DNA of 64,000 nt from Victivallis vadensis (lineage in GTDB: Bacteria; Verrucomicrobiota; Lentisphaeria; Victivallales; Victivallaceae): NCBI RefSeq assembly GCF_003096415.1, contig NZ_QEKH01000001.1, positions 1 to 64,000 on the forward strand. Direction: 5' to 3'. The notes under the pieces are model-generated. The model was not told the DNA's origin. It worked only from the letters and a program-made list of their open reading frames with translations, and did no database searches. Both the position numbers and the translations under genes were made by a program. This document shows positions 560 to 42,815 of this stretch, piece by piece. The number at the start of each line of letters is the position of its first letter. The stretch's first letter is position 1.

Positions 560-1423
560 TCAAATCAGCGGAACTGCATCGGAAACTGCTTCGGCAGGAT
601 ATTCCCGGCGGAGACGTTCCGCATCTTCTTTTTCCAGCACCCAACCGAGCGCACCCATATTTTCTGCGAGGTGGAGCGGATTGGCAGCTTTGGTTATGGT
701 CACCACATTCTCCTGACACAACAGCCAGTTCAAGGCGATCTGCGATGGAGTTTTTCCGTATTTTTCCGCCAGAGTAACGATCAGCGGCAGAGCGAGGTCA
801 AGACCGCGCAGCGGACGCCAGGCGATCACCATGATATCCTGTGAACGGCAATAATCCAGCAGACCGCACTGCTCGATCTCCCGGATCCGCAGGTTATAGT
901 GAAGCTGGTTGGCGACGATCGGAGCATCGGAGGCTGCCTGCGCCCGTTTCAGCCGCTCTTCCGAAAAGTTGCTGACGCCGATATGCCGGATTACTCCTTC
1001 GCGTTTCAGCCGGTTCATGGCTCGGATCGTCTCTTCCTCCGGCACATCCGGATTCACCTGATGGATCAGATAAAGATCGATGTAATCGGTTCCGAGCCGT
1101 TTCAGGCTGGCTTCGGCGGCCCGGAGAACGTCGTCGTAACGGAGATGCGTTTTCCAGACCTTGTCGGTCAGGAAATAATCGGCACGTCTGATCCCCTGCC
1201 CTTTCATTGCGATTCCCACCAGTTCTTCGGCGTGACCGCCCGCATACATTTCGGCGGTATCGATATGACACAAGCCGGTTGCAATGCCGCGTCGGATTGC
1301 GGCGATGTCGGCGTCATCGTTTGCGGTATCCGGCGTATCCACGCCACCCATGCGCCAGGTCCCCTGCCCCAGAACCGGAATCGCAAAACCGTTTTTCAAT
1401 GATTTCCACGGAACGTCACTCAT
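560..1423 (-). CDS. Aldo/keto reductase
   Basis: NAD(P)H-dependent oxidoreductase of the AKR superfamily, 287 residues, the usual length. The AKR tetrad is visible: Asp and Tyr in DTAEMYAGG, Lys in LTDKVW and His in YLIHQV. The cofactor-end motif GVSNFSEERL is also present. The start is placed at the ATG at 1423 because it has a GGGAGAA ribosome site and overlaps the stop of the upstream kinase gene by 8 bp (ATGAGTGA), which suggests translational coupling. The product begins MSDVPWKSL. The natural substrate cannot be read from the sequence. A GC-rich stem-loop follows the stop codon. Confidence 0.9.
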   Translation of the reverse strand: MSDVPWKSLKNGFAIPVLGQGTWRMGGVDTPDTANDDADIAAIRRGIATGLCHIDTAEMYAGGHAEELVGIAMKGQGIRRADYFLTDKVWKTHLRYDDVLRAAEASLKRLGTDYIDLYLIHQVNPDVPEEETIRAMNRLKREGVIRHIGVSNFSEERLKRAQAASDAPIVANQLHYNLRIREIEQCGLLDYCRSQDIMVIAWRPLRGLDLALPLIVTLAEKYGKTPSQIALNWLLCQENVVTITKAANPLHLAENMGALGWVLEKEDAERLRREYPAEAVSDAVPLI

Positions 1424-3155
1424 TTCTTTTCTCCCTTTTTGCATCCAGTTTCCGACGGGCACGCTCTTTCAGAAACTTCCGCCGCTGCCAGTGGTCGTCG
1501 ATCAGAATAATAACTCCCAGCACGGCGGAGACGGCGAAGCCGAACATGCCGATGATCGGGATATCATTCCAGAACGGCGGTATTTTGGCCACGATGATCA
1601 ACGCGGTGCCGATCAGCAGCGCGGTGACGAGCATGGAGCGGGAAAGCCGTTCGCCGGTCACATACATAGTCTGTTCAATATCATCCAGCCGGTGATGCTC
1701 CACCCGCAGCGTCAGATTGCCGTTCTCAGCGGAAGTAATCAGTTTGCGAAGCGTGGTCGGCAGCGTTTCCAAAGCGCTCAGATTGTCGCCGAAATTATCC
1801 AGAAAACGTCGCAAATGCGGCATCGGATCGTAGGAACGCCATTTCAGCCGCTCGATGAATGGTTTGACCATGTCGACGATCTTCAATGCGGGATCGAAGG
1901 TCCTGCCCAGATGCTCGATGGAAATCAGCGCCTTGAACATCATGTAGAGATTCGGTTTCAGGCTCAATGAGTATTTGCGGAACAGCTCCATCAGTTCTTC
2001 GAGAATATGCGATACACTGATCTTGTCGAGCGGCAGGTTGATGTTTTCATCCACAAGGTCGGCGACGTCCCGTTCCAACTCTTCCCGGTCGCCTTCGTAA
2101 GTGCCGGTAATGGTCATGCGCAGGGCGCAGTCGGTCATGGAGGAAATTTCGCCGCGCAGCATATAGTCGATGATCCGCACGAAGTCGCGCCGTTCCTGCT
2201 CATCGATTCTCCCCATCATGCCGAAGTCGATAAACGCGACCCGGTTGCCTTCCAGCAGAAACAGATTGCCGGGGTGTGGATCGGCATGAAAAAAACCGGT
2301 TTCGAAAATCTGCTTGAGCATCAGATTCACCCCGAGATGGGCGACCAGAGGAAGATCGTATTTGGCCCGCAATTCCGGATGCTCCAGCACCCTGGTGGCG
2401 GAATCGCCGAAGATCCGTTCCATGGTCAGGACTTTGGTTGTGGTGTAATTCAAATACAATTTCGGGATCACCAGCCCCGGAGAATCCTTCATGCTGTTGG
2501 TAAATCGGAGCAGGTTGGCCGCTTCGAACTGGTAGTTCAATTCCCGCCGCAGGGAGTAGGCGAACTCCCCGACGATTTTGACCGGTTCGTTGCGGGCCAG
2601 CGTTTCGTTGAAGTCCTCCAGCTTGCGGGCGATGTACAGCATGATGTCCAAGTCGAGTTCGATGGTCTCCTTGATCCCGGGCCGCTGGATTTTGACCACC
2701 ACTTCCGTTCCGTCATGAAGGCGGGCGGCATGGACCTGACCGATGCTGGCGGCTGCCAGCGGCTTTTCGGAAAATGAGAGGAACAGCTTTTCCGGCGGCT
2801 GTTTCAGCTCCTGTTGAATGATCTTGCGTACCTCTTCACCGGAAAAAGGTGTGACCTGCTCGGTCAGTTTGGAGAGTTCATCAGCGTACTTCTGGGAAAT
2901 CAGATCGGGACGGGTGGAGAGAATCTGCCCGAGCTTCACGAAGCTCGGCCCCAGTTCTTCCAACAACAGCCGCAGTTTTTCCGGACGGCTTTTGCCGGCC
3001 AGTTCCTCCTGACTTTTTCGGCTGTAAATCTTTTTGATCGGATGGATATTTTCCGTCAGATCATAGAAGCCGTAGCGCGCCATCGTCTCCAAAATGCGCA
3101 GAAAACGCTTCAATGAACGGTAATCCCGGTTGACTTCAAACGGCATCAGCGACAT
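1416..3155 (-). CDS. ABC1/AarF (UbiB) family protein kinase-like protein
   Basis: Member of the atypical kinase family that includes AarF/UbiB and Coq8, which supports isoprenoid-quinone or lipid metabolism at the membrane. 579 residues. Visible hallmarks are the KxGQ-type motif (FVKLGQILSTRPDL), the Ala-rich nucleotide loop (AAASIGQVHAA), a VVKIQRPG lysine, HADPHPGN as catalytic loop and FIDFGMMGR as metal loop. Two hydrophobic helices near the C-terminus (LVTALLIGTALIIV and the following segment) would anchor it in the membrane. The start at 3155 follows a GAGGAGAG ribosome site. It is translationally coupled to the downstream reductase. The exact substrate is unknown. Confidence 0.92.
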   Translation of the reverse strand: MSLMPFEVNRDYRSLKRFLRILETMARYGFYDLTENIHPIKKIYSRKSQEELAGKSRPEKLRLLLEELGPSFVKLGQILSTRPDLISQKYADELSKLTEQVTPFSGEEVRKIIQQELKQPPEKLFLSFSEKPLAAASIGQVHAARLHDGTEVVVKIQRPGIKETIELDLDIMLYIARKLEDFNETLARNEPVKIVGEFAYSLRRELNYQFEAANLLRFTNSMKDSPGLVIPKLYLNYTTTKVLTMERIFGDSATRVLEHPELRAKYDLPLVAHLGVNLMLKQIFETGFFHADPHPGNLFLLEGNRVAFIDFGMMGRIDEQERRDFVRIIDYMLRGEISSMTDCALRMTITGTYEGDREELERDVADLVDENINLPLDKISVSHILEELMELFRKYSLSLKPNLYMMFKALISIEHLGRTFDPALKIVDMVKPFIERLKWRSYDPMPHLRRFLDNFGDNLSALETLPTTLRKLITSAENGNLTLRVEHHRLDDIEQTMYVTGERLSRSMLVTALLIGTALIIVAKIPPFWNDIPIIGMFGFAVSAVLGVIILIDDHWQRRKFLKERARRKLDAKREKRNE

Positions 3156-3197
3156 ATTCTTCTCTCCTCTTTCCGGAATTTGATTCCTCTGAATAAT

Positions 3198-3239
3198 AAT
3201 ATAGCGTAAAATTGCTTTTAGCAAAATCGGTTTTATATT
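3198..3239. promoter_or_regulatory. Divergent promoters sharing a palindrome
   Basis: Plus strand: TTGCTT (3212-3217), 16 bp, TATATT (3234-3239), toward the methyltransferase. Minus strand: TTGCTA (3224-3219), 15 bp, TATATT (3203-3198), toward the kinase gene. Both -35 boxes lie in the palindrome TTGCTTTTAGCAA (3212-3224), so one protein bound there could affect both genes. The 15-bp spacer of the minus promoter is short, so that assignment is weaker. Confidence 0.5.
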
Positions 3240-3279
3240 ATAAGCGTAAATAATCTGTTCTAATCGGGAGTTTTGTTTG

Positions 3280-5205
3280 ATGGATGCCCTGCTCTCCGTC
3301 CGGGAGGCCGCGGAATTTCTGGGAGTTTCACAAGCCACGGTATACCATTGGGCCAGAAGCGGCATTCTTCAGGGATATCAGCAGGCGGTTCGGCGCTTTC
3401 CGGCCGAACAGGTGCACAAGCTTCAGCGGGCCATTGCGGCGGGCCATGTCCCGCGATTGAATGCGCGTGCCAACAAGCGGCATGCAGACGGTTACCGGAC
3501 TCCCTTTCCATCCCGTCCCGAAGACGGCAATGACGCCAGTCAGATCATCCGGCTCCGGCGATTGATCCGGGAGCGGCAGCTCAATCCGGCGTGCATTCTG
3601 TATGTCCGGGCGCTGCGGCTGCTGGCGGAAGCCGGCGAATGGGAGCCGGCGACGCCGTTCTCCCCTGCCCTGCCGCCGGCTTCCCGGTGGCGGCGGCAGA
3701 GTGTGGCCCGGATCATGCGCGGCTGGCGGCGCGATCTGGGAGTATCGGTCCTCTCCGCAGCCGATTACCGCAGGCCGTTTGAACTGCCGGTGGAACCGGT
3801 TTCCGGTTCCGACCAGCTCGGTTTCCTCTACCAGGCGCTTCGCCGTACCGGCAGCCGGGTGCAGGCCGGCTCCTTTTATACGCCGCCGGAAGTGGTTCGG
3901 AGCATGACGGCAGGCTTGACGCCGCACGATGGCTTCACATTGCTTGATCCCGGCTGCGGCAGCGGCCAGTTTCTATTGGGCGCTGCTGAGGCCGGTTGGG
4001 AGTTTGATCAGCTTTTCGGCATCGATCTGGATCCGCTGGCACTGCGGCTGGCAGCGCTCAATCTGCTTCTGGCGTTTCCGGCAGTCGATGCGTTGCCCAA
4101 TTTGAAATGCGCCGATGCGTTGTTGACGGATTCCTTCGGGCGCCGCCGGTTTGACGTGGTGATCGGGAATCCCCCGTGGGGACGTCTGGCGGATGGTGAG
4201 CTTCGCCGCCGCCTGAACCGCAGGTACTTACGGAAGCGCAATTTCTCGGAGAGCTTCTCGTACTTCCTGTTGCGGGCCCGTGCGCTTGCCGTTCCTGGCG
4301 GAACCATCCGCTTTCTGCTGCCGGAGGCGATCCTGAATATCCGCCGCCATGCGGAAATCAGAAGCGAACTGCTGAATGAGTGTACCTGGCGCGGCATCGC
4401 GGAGTGCGGCCGGAAATTTTCCGGAGTCTTTACCGGTGCAATCACCCTTGATCTGCTCAATATTCCGCCTTCTCCCAATCACCGGATTGAGATTCGGCCG
4501 GAGGCCGGACCGGAGTTTCAACTGCTGCAAACCAGCCTGAAACCTGAGAGCGGCCTGGTGATCCAAAGTGGCCCGCTGGAGAATTCGATCTGGGAGAAGG
4601 TGAGCCGGTATCCGCACCGGACTTTGAAAGACAGCGGGGCGGAATGGGCATTGGGAATCGTGACCGGAAACAACCGGAAGTGGCTCCTGCCGGTCGGCAG
4701 CCGCGGCGGCGAGCCGATCGTCCGGGGAGTGGAGGTTCAACCGTACCGGCTGGCTCCGGCGCAATATGAAATTTTCTTCGATCCGAAAAAATTTCAGCAA
4801 TGTGCGCCGGAACGCCTTTACCGGGTCCCGGAAAAACTGGTGTACCGCTTCATCTCCAGGCGTCTGGTCTTCGCTCTGGACCGAAAGGGCGTCCTGACGC
4901 TCAACAGCGCCAACAATCTGATCGTTCCGCCGGCATTCTATCCGATGAAACTGATCGCCGTGCTGTTCAATTCCGGGCTTTATCAACTGCTGTTCCGAAG
5001 CAGGTTCAATACGCACAAGGTACTGCGCAGCGACCTCGAGCAACTGCCCCTGCCCGATTTCCCGGCGCCGGTCCGCGCTGAACTGTCAGGGCTGGCGGAC
5101 CGGCTGTTGGCCGGAGATGCTTCCGCGATCTCCCGGGTCGATGTCGTGCTGGCTTCGGTGCTGGGCCTGACGGAGGCGGAAAAGGTGCTGGTTACTGAAC
5201 TGTGA
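3280..5205 (+). CDS. Orphan N6-adenine DNA methyltransferase with N-terminal helix-turn-helix
   Basis: Predicted adenine-specific DNA methyltransferase of 641 residues. Residues about 4-50 form a MerR/excisionase-type helix-turn-helix (LLSVREAAEFLGVSQATVYHW). After a linker come the FYTP motif near residue 206, the AdoMet motif DPGCGSGQF near 223 and the catalytic NPPW near 297. The C-terminal part resembles the TaqI/Eco57I-type target-recognition region. No nuclease motif is seen in the protein and no restriction endonuclease lies beside it, so it looks like a solitary regulator-type or remnant modification enzyme. The ATG at 3280 has a CGGGAG ribosome site. It converges with the lipoprotein gene downstream, their 3' ends overlapping by 14 bp. 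The target sequence is unknown. Confidence 0.85.
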   Translation: MDALLSVREAAEFLGVSQATVYHWARSGILQGYQQAVRRFPAEQVHKLQRAIAAGHVPRLNARANKRHADGYRTPFPSRPEDGNDASQIIRLRRLIRERQLNPACILYVRALRLLAEAGEWEPATPFSPALPPASRWRRQSVARIMRGWRRDLGVSVLSAADYRRPFELPVEPVSGSDQLGFLYQALRRTGSRVQAGSFYTPPEVVRSMTAGLTPHDGFTLLDPGCGSGQFLLGAAEAGWEFDQLFGIDLDPLALRLAALNLLLAFPAVDALPNLKCADALLTDSFGRRRFDVVIGNPPWGRLADGELRRRLNRRYLRKRNFSESFSYFLLRARALAVPGGTIRFLLPEAILNIRRHAEIRSELLNECTWRGIAECGRKFSGVFTGAITLDLLNIPPSPNHRIEIRPEAGPEFQLLQTSLKPESGLVIQSGPLENSIWEKVSRYPHRTLKDSGAEWALGIVTGNNRKWLLPVGSRGGEPIVRGVEVQPYRLAPAQYEIFFDPKKFQQCAPERLYRVPEKLVYRFISRRLVFALDRKGVLTLNSANNLIVPPAFYPMKLIAVLFNSGLYQLLFRSRFNTHKVLRSDLEQLPLPDFPAPVRAELSGLADRLLAGDASAISRVDVVLASVLGLTEAEKVLVTEL

Positions 5206-5785
5206 CAACTTTTCCTTTGGTCTCCGGGGAACGAATCGCGACCGCGGCAAGCGGGCTCTCCACCTTGACTGATTTCAGGTTCAGCTCGGCCTTGATGAAA
5301 TAACGCCGTTCGCCGTTGGGGGAGACGACCAGGCTGTCGACAAAGGGCAGCTCCTTTTCGATCTGCACTTCATTGTTGGGCATCAGGTCCAGCGGGAAAC
5401 GTCCGGTCTGTTTCGGATCGATTTCCATCCGGATCGGAATCCACATATTCGGATCCGGTCCGTTCATCCCCGGGAACCACGGCTGACAGTAAACCTGCAC
5501 ATTGTATGGTTCGTTGACATACCATTCCACCAGGCGAATCGGCTTGTTGTCGATATTTTTCAGGGCGAACATCAGTCTGCCCCCTTCCCCGGTGATCAGC
5601 TCGCGTTTGCTGATCAGATTGAGGCTCAGCTTGTAGTCGGCCAGCGGAGGATATTCCGGCAGTTCCGCAATTCCTTTGCCCCAGGGCTGTTCCGTGACTT
5701 CCCGGACGCAGCCGGTTCCGAGCAGGGCGAGCATCAATGCAGCAGTGATGTATCCGGTTTTCATTCTCTTTGCCTTTCTGTTCAT
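5192..5785 (-). CDS. Hypothetical lipoprotein
   Basis: 197-residue protein with a type II signal peptide: a hydrophobic helix followed by the lipobox LGTGC at about residues 22-26, so it is likely lipid-anchored. The mature part looks beta-rich, with a stretch resembling an intracellular-proteinase-inhibitor or Ig-like fold (LMFALKNIDNKPIRLVEW), but I do not recognise a family. The ATG at 5785 overlaps the dnaG stop as ATGA, so it is the last gene of the zinc-transport/dnaG run. An internal ATG at 5764 (MKTGYI) is an alternative start. Its role is unknown. Confidence 0.75.
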   Translation of the reverse strand: MNRKAKRMKTGYITAALMLALLGTGCVREVTEQPWGKGIAELPEYPPLADYKLSLNLISKRELITGEGGRLMFALKNIDNKPIRLVEWYVNEPYNVQVYCQPWFPGMNGPDPNMWIPIRMEIDPKQTGRFPLDLMPNNEVQIEKELPFVDSLVVSPNGERRYFIKAELNLKSVKVESPLAAVAIRSPETKGKVVTVQ

Positions 5786-7650
5786 GACATCGACTGAAGC
5801 CGGGTCAGGAGAGCAAGCCGCTCCTCCGGCGTGGACGCATTTTTCATCTGGAGCATCAGCAGCCGCTGTTCCTCCTTTTTAAACTGGCGGCGCAATTCGG
5901 CGGCCGACTCCTCAACGGCGGTCGGAATGTCCTTGCAGACGAATTCGCTGACCAATATGCGGCTGATCTCCGGCACGGGATGTTCGATCAGCAGTTCCGA
6001 AAGCTCCGCCGGAACCTGCTCGAACTCTCCATTCAGCGCCAGGTTCACAGTCAGGTTGACCGCTCTGGCGATCGGATTGGAGTCCGGCAACTCTTCCGGC
6101 GGCACCAGTTCCGCGATCTGCCGGGCCGCCGTTTCGGAGTTGACGGCCAATTCCAGCAAAGTCAGCAAGGCCGGAGAACAGGGATCCTCCTGTTGAATTC
6201 CCGGCAAGGGCCGGTTCTCCGAACGGGGCCGGGGCGGGATGAATTCCCCGGTATTCGGTGTGTACGCCGGTTCCGCCGCCGGGCCGCCGCGGGAGAACTC
6301 CTCGTTGCGCCGGGCCTTGCGGCTCACCTGCCGCAGCTCCGCATAGAGCGCGTCCTCGCTGACGCCGAGGAGCATTGCGGCATCCCGCACGTACAGCTCC
6401 AGTTCCACCTGGTTGGTGATCCGGTTCAGATAACCGGCAACCTCGACGGCGGCGTGTCCCCGGCCGGCCGCCGAACCCATATCATGGCGTTGCGGCAAGG
6501 AATCGCACAAAACCTTCAGCCACGATACCGAATCGTCCAGCGCCTGCTGCAACGCAGCTGCTCCGCCGTGCGCGAAAAGTTCGTCAGGGTCCTTGCCGCC
6601 GGGGATGCGGACCACCTTGATATCGAAAGACATCGGCAGCAGAATCTCCACATCGCGCAAAATGGCTTTCTGGCCGGCGGAATCGGAATCCAGCGCCAGG
6701 TAAATCCGGTTGCAGTAGCGGCTCAGAATCCGGGCCTGATTTTCGGTAAAGCTGGTTCCCTGCGGTGCCACCGCGCATTCAATTCCGGCCCGGTGGAACG
6801 CGATGGAGTCGAGCTGCCCCTCGCAAATCACCGCCATATTCCTGTCGCTCATCATTTTGCGCGCCAGCGGCAGCGCGTAGAGCAGATTGCCTTTTTTGAA
6901 AATCGGGGTTTCCGGGGTGTTGATGTATTTGCCGCCGGCCAGCGGTTTTGCTTCAAGGGAACGGCAACTGAATCCGACCACCCTGCCCTGCTCGTTTTCG
7001 ATCGCGAAGGTCAGGCGGCCTTTGAAGTGGTCGAAGCAGCGGCCGGTCTCGGCCTTTTTCCGGATGATCCCGGAGGTGACCAGCTCTTCGTCGGTGAATC
7101 CAAGGCTGCGGCCGTAATCCAGACAGGCCGTCCACTCATCGGGACAGGCTCCGATTTTAAACCGTTCCGCCACCTCCGGCGGAATGCCGCGCCGCCGCAG
7201 ATACTCCGCCGCCGGTGAATTCGGATTGCGGACCAATACCTGATGGAAGAAAGTGGCAAACGCTTCATTGATCTGGTAGAGCCGTTCGCGCTCATTGGCG
7301 CGCCGTCTTCCCTCCCCCGGATCACCGCCGCCGGAATTTTCCGGGATCACCACGCCGACTCGCGAGGCAAGCATGTGCAGCGCGTCGACGAAGCCGACAT
7401 TTTCCTTGTCCATATAGAAGCGGAAAACATCGCCCCCCTTGCCGCAGCCGAAGCAATGAAACGTCTGGCGGGAAGCATCCACGTGAAACGACGGAGTCTT
7501 TTCCTGATGGAACGGGCACAACCCCTTGTAGGTGTTGGTTCCGGAGCGCTTGAGCTGTACAAAGGTTCCGATCAGCTCGACAATGTCGCACCGGGCGCGG
7601 ATGTCCTCAATGATATCTTTGGAGACGCCGAAATTCATTTTCCCCGCCAT
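5782..7650 (-). CDS. dnaG: DNA primase
   Basis: Synthesises RNA primers at the replication fork. 622 residues from the chosen start. The N-terminal zinc-binding domain shows CPFHQEKTPSF and FHCFGCGKGGDVF. The RNA-polymerase core follows, with the Toprim residues in EGQLDSIAFHRAG and LALDSDSAGQKA. The C-terminal region would contact DnaB. The start at 7650 (MAGKMNFGVSKDII) is chosen because it aligns with the MAGR start of the E. coli enzyme and lies 4 nt after the preceding stop; the ATG at 7638 is possible. It is unusual that dnaG sits behind a zinc-uptake operon and not in the rpsU-dnaG-rpoD arrangement. Confidence 0.97.
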   Translation of the reverse strand: MAGKMNFGVSKDIIEDIRARCDIVELIGTFVQLKRSGTNTYKGLCPFHQEKTPSFHVDASRQTFHCFGCGKGGDVFRFYMDKENVGFVDALHMLASRVGVVIPENSGGGDPGEGRRRANERERLYQINEAFATFFHQVLVRNPNSPAAEYLRRRGIPPEVAERFKIGACPDEWTACLDYGRSLGFTDEELVTSGIIRKKAETGRCFDHFKGRLTFAIENEQGRVVGFSCRSLEAKPLAGGKYINTPETPIFKKGNLLYALPLARKMMSDRNMAVICEGQLDSIAFHRAGIECAVAPQGTSFTENQARILSRYCNRIYLALDSDSAGQKAILRDVEILLPMSFDIKVVRIPGGKDPDELFAHGGAAALQQALDDSVSWLKVLCDSLPQRHDMGSAAGRGHAAVEVAGYLNRITNQVELELYVRDAAMLLGVSEDALYAELRQVSRKARRNEEFSRGGPAAEPAYTPNTGEFIPPRPRSENRPLPGIQQEDPCSPALLTLLELAVNSETAARQIAELVPPEELPDSNPIARAVNLTVNLALNGEFEQVPAELSELLIEHPVPEISRILVSEFVCKDIPTAVEESAAELRRQFKKEEQRLLMLQMKNASTPEERLALLTRLQSMS

Positions 7651-7654
7651 CCGC

Positions 7655-8413
7655 TCAGTTGAGCCGTTGCAGACGCGCCTCGACTTCATCGCGCCGGGCG
7701 GCATATTCCGGCCGGTCCGAGATCAACCGCAGATAGTGGCGATAGAAATTTTTCGCATTCATTTTGGAGTTGGTATAGCGTTCCATGAACGTCGCGGTGT
7801 TGAATACGATTTCCGGATTGTTCGAGTCCCGGGAGCACGCCGCCAGAAACGCCCGTTTCGCCGCCTCGTAATCACCGCGGGAAACATAATAGACTCCGAG
7901 CTGATTGTTCAGTGCCGGATTGTTCGCAAACTCCGGCAGCCGCTTCAACGCCATCAGGAAGGTCAGCGTCTGATTGGAGCGCATCGCAACCGCCACATTG
8001 CAGAGCAGCACCAGCGTGTTGGTGTCGTTCTGCTTGAGCCGCAGCGCTTTCAGCAGGGCATTCATCGCTTCGGCATATCGGGTCGGATCCGTGGAATAGA
8101 GCCGCCCGAGCGTATATTGCGCGGAAAAGCTGTCAGGATTGCAGCCGACCGCCTTGGTGGCGGAACTGACCGCCAGATCGCGCTCACCTGCCTTTTCGGC
8201 GGCAATGGCACGGAAAACCAGAGAGGAGACATTTTCCGGAGCAAGCTCCGTCGCCTTCCGGGTATACTTCAACGCCCTTTTCCAGTCGCCGCCGGTGGCG
8301 TATTCATTGGCCTTATTCAGGCAGCCTTCGACCGTATTGTCTCCGCATCCGGCCGCAACGAACAGCGTCAGGAGCGCGATCGCCGCCGGGATCAACAGTT
8401 TTGTCATTTTCAT
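7655..8413 (-). CDS. TPR-repeat lipoprotein
   Basis: 252 residues with a signal peptide ending in the lipobox VAAGC, so it is likely membrane-anchored and periplasmic. The rest consists of tetratricopeptide-type helical repeats (for example WKRALKYTRKATELAPEN, and further units to about residue 240), which usually mediate protein contacts. The start at 8413 has an AAGGGTGAG ribosome site. It lies 23 bp after znuB and 4 bp before dnaG, so it is probably co-transcribed with both. The partner and role are unknown. Confidence 0.85.
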   Translation of the reverse strand: MKMTKLLIPAAIALLTLFVAAGCGDNTVEGCLNKANEYATGGDWKRALKYTRKATELAPENVSSLVFRAIAAEKAGERDLAVSSATKAVGCNPDSFSAQYTLGRLYSTDPTRYAEAMNALLKALRLKQNDTNTLVLLCNVAVAMRSNQTLTFLMALKRLPEFANNPALNNQLGVYYVSRGDYEAAKRAFLAACSRDSNNPEIVFNTATFMERYTNSKMNAKNFYRHYLRLISDRPEYAARRDEVEARLQRLN

Positions 8414-42400: not shown

Positions 42401-42476
42401 TGGAGCGAGTGACCGGAATCGAACCGGCGACAATCACGTTGGCAACGTGATGCTCTACCAACTGAGCTACACTCGC
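42401..42476 (-). tRNA. tRNA-Gly (GCC), copy 4 in transcription order
   Basis: Complete 76-nt cloverleaf on the minus strand: acceptor GCGAGTG/CACTCGC, D arm GCTCAGTTGGTAGAGC, anticodon GCC in a TTGCCAA loop closed by ATCACG/CGTGAT, T arm GGTTCGATTCC, encoded CCA. It is identical to the three other copies. Confidence 0.97.
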
Positions 42477-42514
42477 ACCTGCAAACCGGAAACTCCGGTT
42501 GTTTTTTCAAAAGT

Positions 42515-42590
42515 TGGAGCGAGTGACCGGAATCGAACCGGCGACAATCACGTTGGCAACGTGATGCTCTACCAACTGAGCTACACTCGC
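42515..42590 (-). tRNA. tRNA-Gly (GCC), copy 3 in transcription order
   Basis: Identical in all 76 bases to the copy at 42401-42476, with encoded CCA and GCC anticodon. Confidence 0.97.
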
Positions 42591-42628
42591 ACCTGCAAAC
42601 CGGAAACTCCGGTTGTTTTTTCAAAAGT

Positions 42629-42704
42629 TGGAGCGAGTGACCGGAATCGAACCGGCGACAATCACGTTGGCAACGTGATGCTCTACCAACTGAGCTACAC
42701 TCGC
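42629..42704 (-). tRNA. tRNA-Gly (GCC), copy 2 in transcription order
   Basis: Identical to its neighbours, with encoded CCA and GCC anticodon. Confidence 0.97.
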
Positions 42705-42739
42705 ACCTGCCCGGAAATCTGAAACTCCATCCCGAAAGA

Positions 42740-42815
42740 TGGAGCGAGTGACCGGAATCGAACCGGCGACAATCACGTTGGCAACGTGATGCTCTACCAA
42801 CTGAGCTACACTCGC
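42740..42815 (-). tRNA. tRNA-Gly (GCC), copy 1 in transcription order
   Basis: Identical 76-nt gene and the first transcribed from the promoter at 42867-42840. Its downstream spacer differs from the two identical ones, so it may be the ancestral copy. Confidence 0.97.

Follow-up and report, generated by a model that had tools for sequence, protein, structure and literature searches.

The described enzyme closest in fold to the protein analysed here, over methyltransferase and target recognition domain (TRD) together, is CamA of Clostridioides difficile, which has been reported to be an orphan adenine methyltransferase required for normal sporulation (PMC8187626). A small N-terminal helix-turn-helix (HTH) fused to a DNA methyltransferase is found in the M.SsoII-type cytosine methyltransferases, which belong to the 5mC class and in which the HTH is described as a flexibly linked autorepressor with an operator (PMC3978073). 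M.BseCI and M.TaqI are gamma-class adenine methyltransferases of restriction-modification (R-M) systems, and the type II R-M systems covered by the PADLOC models PDLC03348 and PDLC03414 combine a methyltransferase and an endonuclease. Type I methyltransferase (M) subunits, among them HsdM and PacII M, need a separate S subunit.

The gene compared with these systems lies in a window of 64,000 nucleotides, the whole stretch of DNA that was analysed, from Victivallis vadensis.

Domain organization of the methyltransferase

The open reading frame at 3280-5205 on the plus strand encodes a protein of 641 aa; the frame is open from 3277/3280 and ATG 3280 is the best start codon. The features of the locus are:

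3196..3241, no strand: divergent promoter region, containing the palindrome at 3212-3224
3280..5205, plus strand: predicted solitary gamma-class adenine-type DNA methyltransferase, 641 aa (frame, Pfam, PADLOC, alignment, AlphaFold2 model)
3289..3429, plus strand: HTH_17 domain, residues 4-50 (Pfam)
3457..3477, plus strand: RANK motif (L..RANK), residues 60-66 (kept across the family)
3529..3789, plus strand: helical domain, residues 84-170, with the fold of the N-terminal domain of type I M subunits
3802..4479, plus strand: catalytic methyltransferase domain, residues 175-400 (Pfam, alignment)
3943-3966, plus strand: motif I LDPGCGSG, inside the catalytic domain
4168-4179, plus strand: motif IV NPPW, inside the catalytic domain
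4615..5061, plus strand: TaqI-like TRD, residues 446-594, with Pfam TaqI_C at 479-591 (Pfam, fold, conservation)

Four Pfam families match the protein above their curated cut-offs, namely HTH_17 at residues 4-50 (E 9.5e-10), N6_Mtase at 193-378 (E 2.9e-20), Eco57I at 244-376 (E 1.1e-12) and TaqI_C at 479-591 (E 1.4e-15), which confirms the fusion of an HTH to a TaqI/Eco57I-like methyltransferase that an earlier note on this DNA had proposed. The catalytic motifs are intact (DPGCGSG at 223-229 and NPPW at 297-300) and follow the gamma-class order of motif I, motif IV (NPP[YFW]) and a TaqI-like TRD. Judged by motif order, domains and fold, the protein is predicted to be a gamma-class (TaqI/Eco57I-type) adenine-type DNA methyltransferase; unlike the M.SsoII-type enzymes it carries the adenine-type N6_Mtase and Eco57I domains and no cytosine-5 methyltransferase domain. 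PADLOC assigns its methyltransferase part to MTase_II PDLC03348 (type II methyltransferases, E 1.2e-95), and one type IIG model combining restriction endonuclease (REase) and methyltransferase matches this same part only. No nuclease domain was reported by the Pfam, NCBIfam or PADLOC models. The NCBIfam models for MADS, BREX and Alw26I gave weak matches, far below their cut-offs, and membership of the MADS system was ruled out (MAD2 41.9 bits against a cut-off of 720, MAD1 23.3 against 80).

The AlphaFold2 model has a mean pLDDT of 89.8, with the RANK stretch (61-64) under 50, and its best Foldseek matches are CamA, M.BseCI and M.TaqI. A second structural comparison covers model residues 84-630 for most rows, the HTH (4-50) lying outside the aligned ranges. 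In it, CamA (VIA Z 25.9, rmsd 3.4, 444 aligned), an enzyme with CAAAAA specificity, shares the catalytic and TRD fold over residues 175-630 and is likewise a solitary gamma-class enzyme, but the identity is 17% and the aligned part leaves out both the HTH and the type-I-like helical domain. M.BseCI and M.TaqI have a related TRD fold, and their alignments start at model residue 189 or later, none extending over the HTH. Type I M subunits align over both the helical domain 84-170 and the catalytic domain, with Z up to 28.4 over 79-430 (7vs4_B) and with 2okc_A over 84-436, whereas the window enzyme carries its TRD in the same chain. The type II R-M systems of PDLC03348 and PDLC03414 have the same methyltransferase architecture, including HTH, RANK and TRD, and differ from the window locus in having an endonuclease.

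The HTH-methyltransferase family

The search for other proteins with the same fusion, which the earlier note had recommended, was made by an alignment-based scan of genome contigs and confirmed at least 546 relatives, of which the best 80, from many phyla, were kept as loci. Close relatives (E 4e-51 or better) are present in 16 of the 61 nearest genomes, a broader tally of 47 of 61 taking in generic methyltransferases, and across the phylum the family has a patchy distribution (22 of 288 genomes at E <= 1e-40). Pfam finds HTH_17 in 41 and TaqI_C in all of 51 aligned sequences. A larger alignment has 96 rows, 79 of them from the 80 loci, 16 for the window with its relatives and one for a plasmid copy. 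Here N297-P-P-W300 is kept in every row, the recognition-helix tryptophan W24 in 89 (the other seven are gaps), and N65, the asparagine of the 'RL..RANK' motif that stands after the HTH in the family, in 91 (the other five are gaps). The conserved recognition-helix residues are S17, T20 and W24; the window protein departs from the consensus at Y22, where 74 of the 96 rows have R, and at H23, where 87 have N. Six rows form a branch without HTH helix 1 and wing, and the loci L029-L032 and L034, without these elements, yet keep 'S.(A/S)T..NW' and RANK. Mean information over the 51 sequences is 2.91 bits for HTH helices 2-3, 2.57 for RANK and 2.75 for the TRD, as compared with 2.29 for the catalytic domain and 1.33 for the helical domain 84-170; helices 2-3, RANK and TRD are thus better conserved than the catalytic domain.

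These counts do not bear out the view that the fusion as such is something special, and it is the norm of a large family in many bacterial phyla rather than a local oddity. What is uncommon here is the conservation pattern, along with repeated solitary, syntenic copies in distant phyla. The HTH-RANK-methyltransferase-TRD family is barely described, and among the open-access papers listed by literature searches we found no description of it.

An origin from plasmids was rejected, given that a plasmid search returned 17 records, a single one near full length (Acetobacter) and with no annotated REase near it. This copy (L021), on Acetobacter pasteurianus plasmid pAP22518-1, is 32% identical, HTH included, and in the same region there are a gene for a DNA cytosine methyltransferase and genes with the annotation gyrase A and B. 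A phage origin was rejected as well, the two phage records (one phage deposited twice) both matching part of the protein only. In viral contigs, three of the 80 loci kept from that search match nearly the whole protein with 29% identity.

Endonuclease partners in the family

Clustering of the genes neighbouring the 80 loci yielded one large cluster, present in 27 loci and directly downstream of the methyltransferase gene in 25 of them. It consists of proteins of about 245 aa with PD-(D/E)xK and an invariant YD...IEVKA signature, and the four members tested match REase_II PDLC03414 of PADLOC (E 1.4e-46 to 4.2e-75). Pfam, NCBIfam and PDB sequences gave no credible match to this endonuclease, no plasmid record of it was found, and a fold search with its model returned a weak NhoI match only (E 1.3e-3, TM 0.38 by query length). 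Searching all six frames with a profile brought in L098 and L105 as well as L040, whose copy is truncated by the end of the contig, and a remnant at L041; a gene or trace of the endonuclease is present in 31 of the 80 loci, and in 35 of the other 49 the methyltransferase gene is flanked on either side by 1 kb of DNA or more. In the loci that have it, the endonuclease shows high conservation and adjoins the methyltransferase gene, and in this part of the family the two are predicted to constitute a type II R-M system.

The remnant at L041 (7774-7977), in a genome of Ignavibacteriota, covers profile positions 169-238 with four stops just upstream of an intact methyltransferase gene, and this fossil is a direct case of REase decay. 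At 9920-10453 in L098 and 1995-2528 in L105, the endonuclease has its carboxy-terminal part in a different frame, overlapping the last part of an extended methyltransferase frame (707 and 709 aa); these loci appear to hold a frame-shifted or fusing R-M pair. A very weak trace (E 0.03) of the endonuclease carboxy terminus was also seen in L085 (1502-1576), just after the methyltransferase gene.

The profile of this cognate REase found no match in the genome of the window (G000, 99.5% complete) or in the six frames of the window itself. It matches one of 61 related genomes, G045, beside its methyltransferase gene, while of 12 further genomes reached through the loci 11 have no such REase and one, that of L041, has the fossil only. 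Neighbour scans, which included 117 proteins flanking methyltransferases without the REase cluster, showed no REase model among the 25 most frequent families listed (of 98 and 117). Because the cognate REase is missing from the window's genome and from 60 of the 61 searched, the window gene is, with respect to that REase, a solitary member of an R-M methyltransferase family: of the PDLC03348 and PDLC03414 system the methyltransferase is present and the endonuclease absent. The earlier note had called the gene solitary and had named an endonuclease partner elsewhere as the finding that would speak against it; the cognate family is found neither beside the gene nor anywhere in G000.

Oliveira et al. 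found recent decay of R-M systems to be a rare source of solitary genes (PMC4176335). Since no remnant of the endonuclease was seen in the window's own lineage, we can only infer loss in place, and the gene may have arrived as a solitary one, the route that Oliveira et al. favour in general.

Gene neighbourhood and promoter region

The setting of the methyltransferase gene is one of housekeeping genes. An ABC1-type kinase gene (1416-3158, minus strand) is divergent from it, and a lipoprotein-like gene (5192-5785, minus strand) is convergent, with a DnaG-like gene (5782-7704, minus strand) beyond, the latter two named by eye from the sequence. No endonuclease gene adjoins it among these flanking genes, and their identity, taken with the domain searches, agrees with the earlier statement that the protein has neither a nuclease domain nor a neighbouring endonuclease. 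The 3' ends of the methyltransferase and lipoprotein genes overlap at 5192-5205, and the called frames overlap also in G001 (L022) and G006 (L023).

The divergent promoter core is alignable and kept in G000, G001 and G006. On the minus strand the promoter toward the ABC1-kinase gene is TTGCTA-17-TATTAT (3224 to 3196), and on the plus strand the boxes toward the methyltransferase gene, read by eye, are TTGCTT (3212-3217) and TATTAT (3236-3241). The palindrome TTGCTTTTAGCAA, at which the HTH had been proposed to autoregulate the gene, is present at 3212-3224. It is at chance level: among 2000 dinucleotide shuffles of the intergenic region (121 bp), 1163 hold one as good (arm >=5, spacer <=3) and 1653 do so with a spacer <=8. 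G001 and G006 do not keep both of its inner pairs; what all three syntenic species have in common is TTG-N7-CAA alone, and these six bases are also the cores of the overlapping -35 boxes of the divergent promoters. A common operator was not found in 75 upstream regions of 120 bp, in which neither gapped 4-bp dyads nor 7-mers rose above the level of dinucleotide shuffles; these regions come from the 96 aligned loci, with rows cut at the start, near-copies and short frames left out. All of this speaks against autoregulation at the palindrome.

A recognition helix that is constant across phyla would be expected to have a constant DNA partner and, since the helix is constant but the promoters share no dyad, the simplest reading is that HTH and RANK take part in the enzyme's own engagement of DNA. 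HTH and RANK are therefore read as probably an integral part of the enzyme that helps to engage target DNA, and not primarily as an autorepressor. Of the two options that had been offered for the HTH, autoregulation and a change of targeting, the latter fares better, in the sense that the HTH would be part of targeting. Against such a role, Y22 and H23 of the window protein depart from the family consensus.

Retention of the gene

A family member is present in eight of the nine genomes of the genus (G000-G007, not G008). In G000, G001 and G006 it occupies one shared slot, flanked by the ABC1-kinase gene on one side and the lipoprotein/DnaG genes on the other; tblastn identities to G001 and G006 are 47 and 38% for the methyltransferase, 69 and 64% for the ABC1 kinase, 69 and 60% for DnaG and 49 and 49% for the lipoprotein. 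G002, G003 and G005 carry it in another shared slot, near GAPDH, and the G007 copy belongs to another branch of the family. In G005 (L135, 4079-6805) and G003 (L137, 4193-6915) the slot that the methyltransferase gene has in G000 is taken up by a long gene of a different type (704 and 753 aa), which by eye looks heparinase-like. G008 is without the methyltransferase gene, its ABC1 kinase and lipoprotein genes being 47 bp apart; as G008 falls inside the G005/G002/G003 group of the ABC1 tree, this absence reads as loss, and gene loss is likely there. Methyltransferase and ABC1 trees agree in their main groupings. The occurrence of copies in different slots by group, together with the G007 branch, indicates that gain, loss and replacement occur.

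Conserved settings were also seen in distant phyla. Six Spirochaete loci have pyrB-pyrC-methyltransferase-esterase-radC in common, and five of them have methyltransferases with 48-63% identity and +1 neighbours with 54-66%; four Peptococcaceae loci share a purH-purD neighbourhood (pyrB, radC and purH were named by reading the sequences; the neighbour scan showed dihydroorotase-like, esterase and purD-type domains). For dN/dS, three pairs from the window's order lie at 0.15-0.17, and three pairs made up of Spirochaete and Peptococcaceae loci that lack the REase lie at 0.07-0.18. Three REase-linked pairs, one of them near-identical, lie at 0.16-0.36; two further pairs were saturated and gave no value, and the nearest relative of the window's own gene is too distant for one. 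Given that R-M-linked copies have similar values, purifying selection alone does not prove a host role.

Role of the methyltransferase

As a whole, the explanation that we find fairly probable is that the window gene encodes a solitary gamma-class N6-adenine methyltransferase of an R-M-linked HTH-RANK family, kept for a host m6A mark, with HTH and RANK used in targeting. Other branches of the family include type II R-M systems with one conserved PD-(D/E)xK endonuclease, whereas the window's lineage lacks the endonuclease and has kept the methyltransferase. The kept enzyme would most likely mark a fixed sequence in the chromosome of its host with m6A, and its recognition helix and RANK motif would probably help it to engage the target DNA. 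We infer the m6A activity, the use of the HTH in targeting and the direction from R-M to solitary from these lines of evidence. It is reasonable to suppose, by analogy, that the enzyme works like CamA, with which orthology is not claimed, and with CamA as the closest fold an epigenetic role is plausible. Because the methyltransferase is solitary and maintained, a role other than restriction is likely; the suggestion that it is not a defence enzyme holds in this respect, and is weakened in that many of the closest relatives are R-M methyltransferases.

It is unlikely that the HTH instead acts as an autorepressor at the palindrome or at the overlapping divergent promoters, keeping the methyltransferase level low as in M.SsoII. 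The N-terminal HTH of M.SsoII offers a precedent (PMC3978073), the palindrome shares positions with the -35 boxes and all three syntenic species retain TTG-N7-CAA, but the kept TTG and CAA are explained equally well by the overlapping -35 boxes, the palindrome is at chance level with inner arm pairs that are not kept, no dyad is common to the 75 upstream regions although the recognition helix is, and one branch without HTH helix 1 and wing keeps helix 2-3 and RANK.

The gene could also be a recent solitary arrival, an anti-restriction gene or selfish leftover without host function and on its way out, to which we likewise give a low probability. The patchy distribution in the phylum, the empty site in G008, and the Acetobacter plasmid copy with the few viral-contig relatives would fit such a history, whereas the presence of a family member in eight of nine genus genomes, the same slot and kept promoter in three species although their ABC1 kinases share only 64-69% identity with that of the window, the intact NPPW in all 96 aligned relatives, the low dN/dS in six pairs without REase and the position of G008, where absence reads as loss, argue against it. 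Still more improbable is that the gene is the modification half of a working R-M system with an endonuclease of another family elsewhere in the genome. The genome-wide search covered the one cognate REase family, and neighbour scans giving the 25 most frequent families could hide single endonuclease matches; however, the cognate REase, highly conserved and adjacent where found, is absent from G000, and the neighbour families listed hold no REase model.

TRDs of R-M methyltransferases usually diversify. In this family TRD and HTH recognition helix are conserved above the catalytic domain and one endonuclease family is the partner, which predicts one conserved methylation site across phyla. A bolder proposal, conceivable although doubtful, is that HTH and RANK act as another DNA-reading element inside the enzyme and, together with the TRD, set a single fixed target sequence for the whole family, and that the same methyltransferase became a solitary, host-owned chromosome mark several times independently (in the window's genus, Spirochaetes and Peptococcaceae), with the same m6A motif in distant phyla. 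Comparing methylomes would test directly by what route an R-M methyltransferase turns into an epigenetic enzyme of the host, and also what the HTH does inside a methyltransferase.

Elsewhere in the window, four tRNA-Gly genes with anticodon gcc stand in tandem at 42401-42815 on the minus strand.
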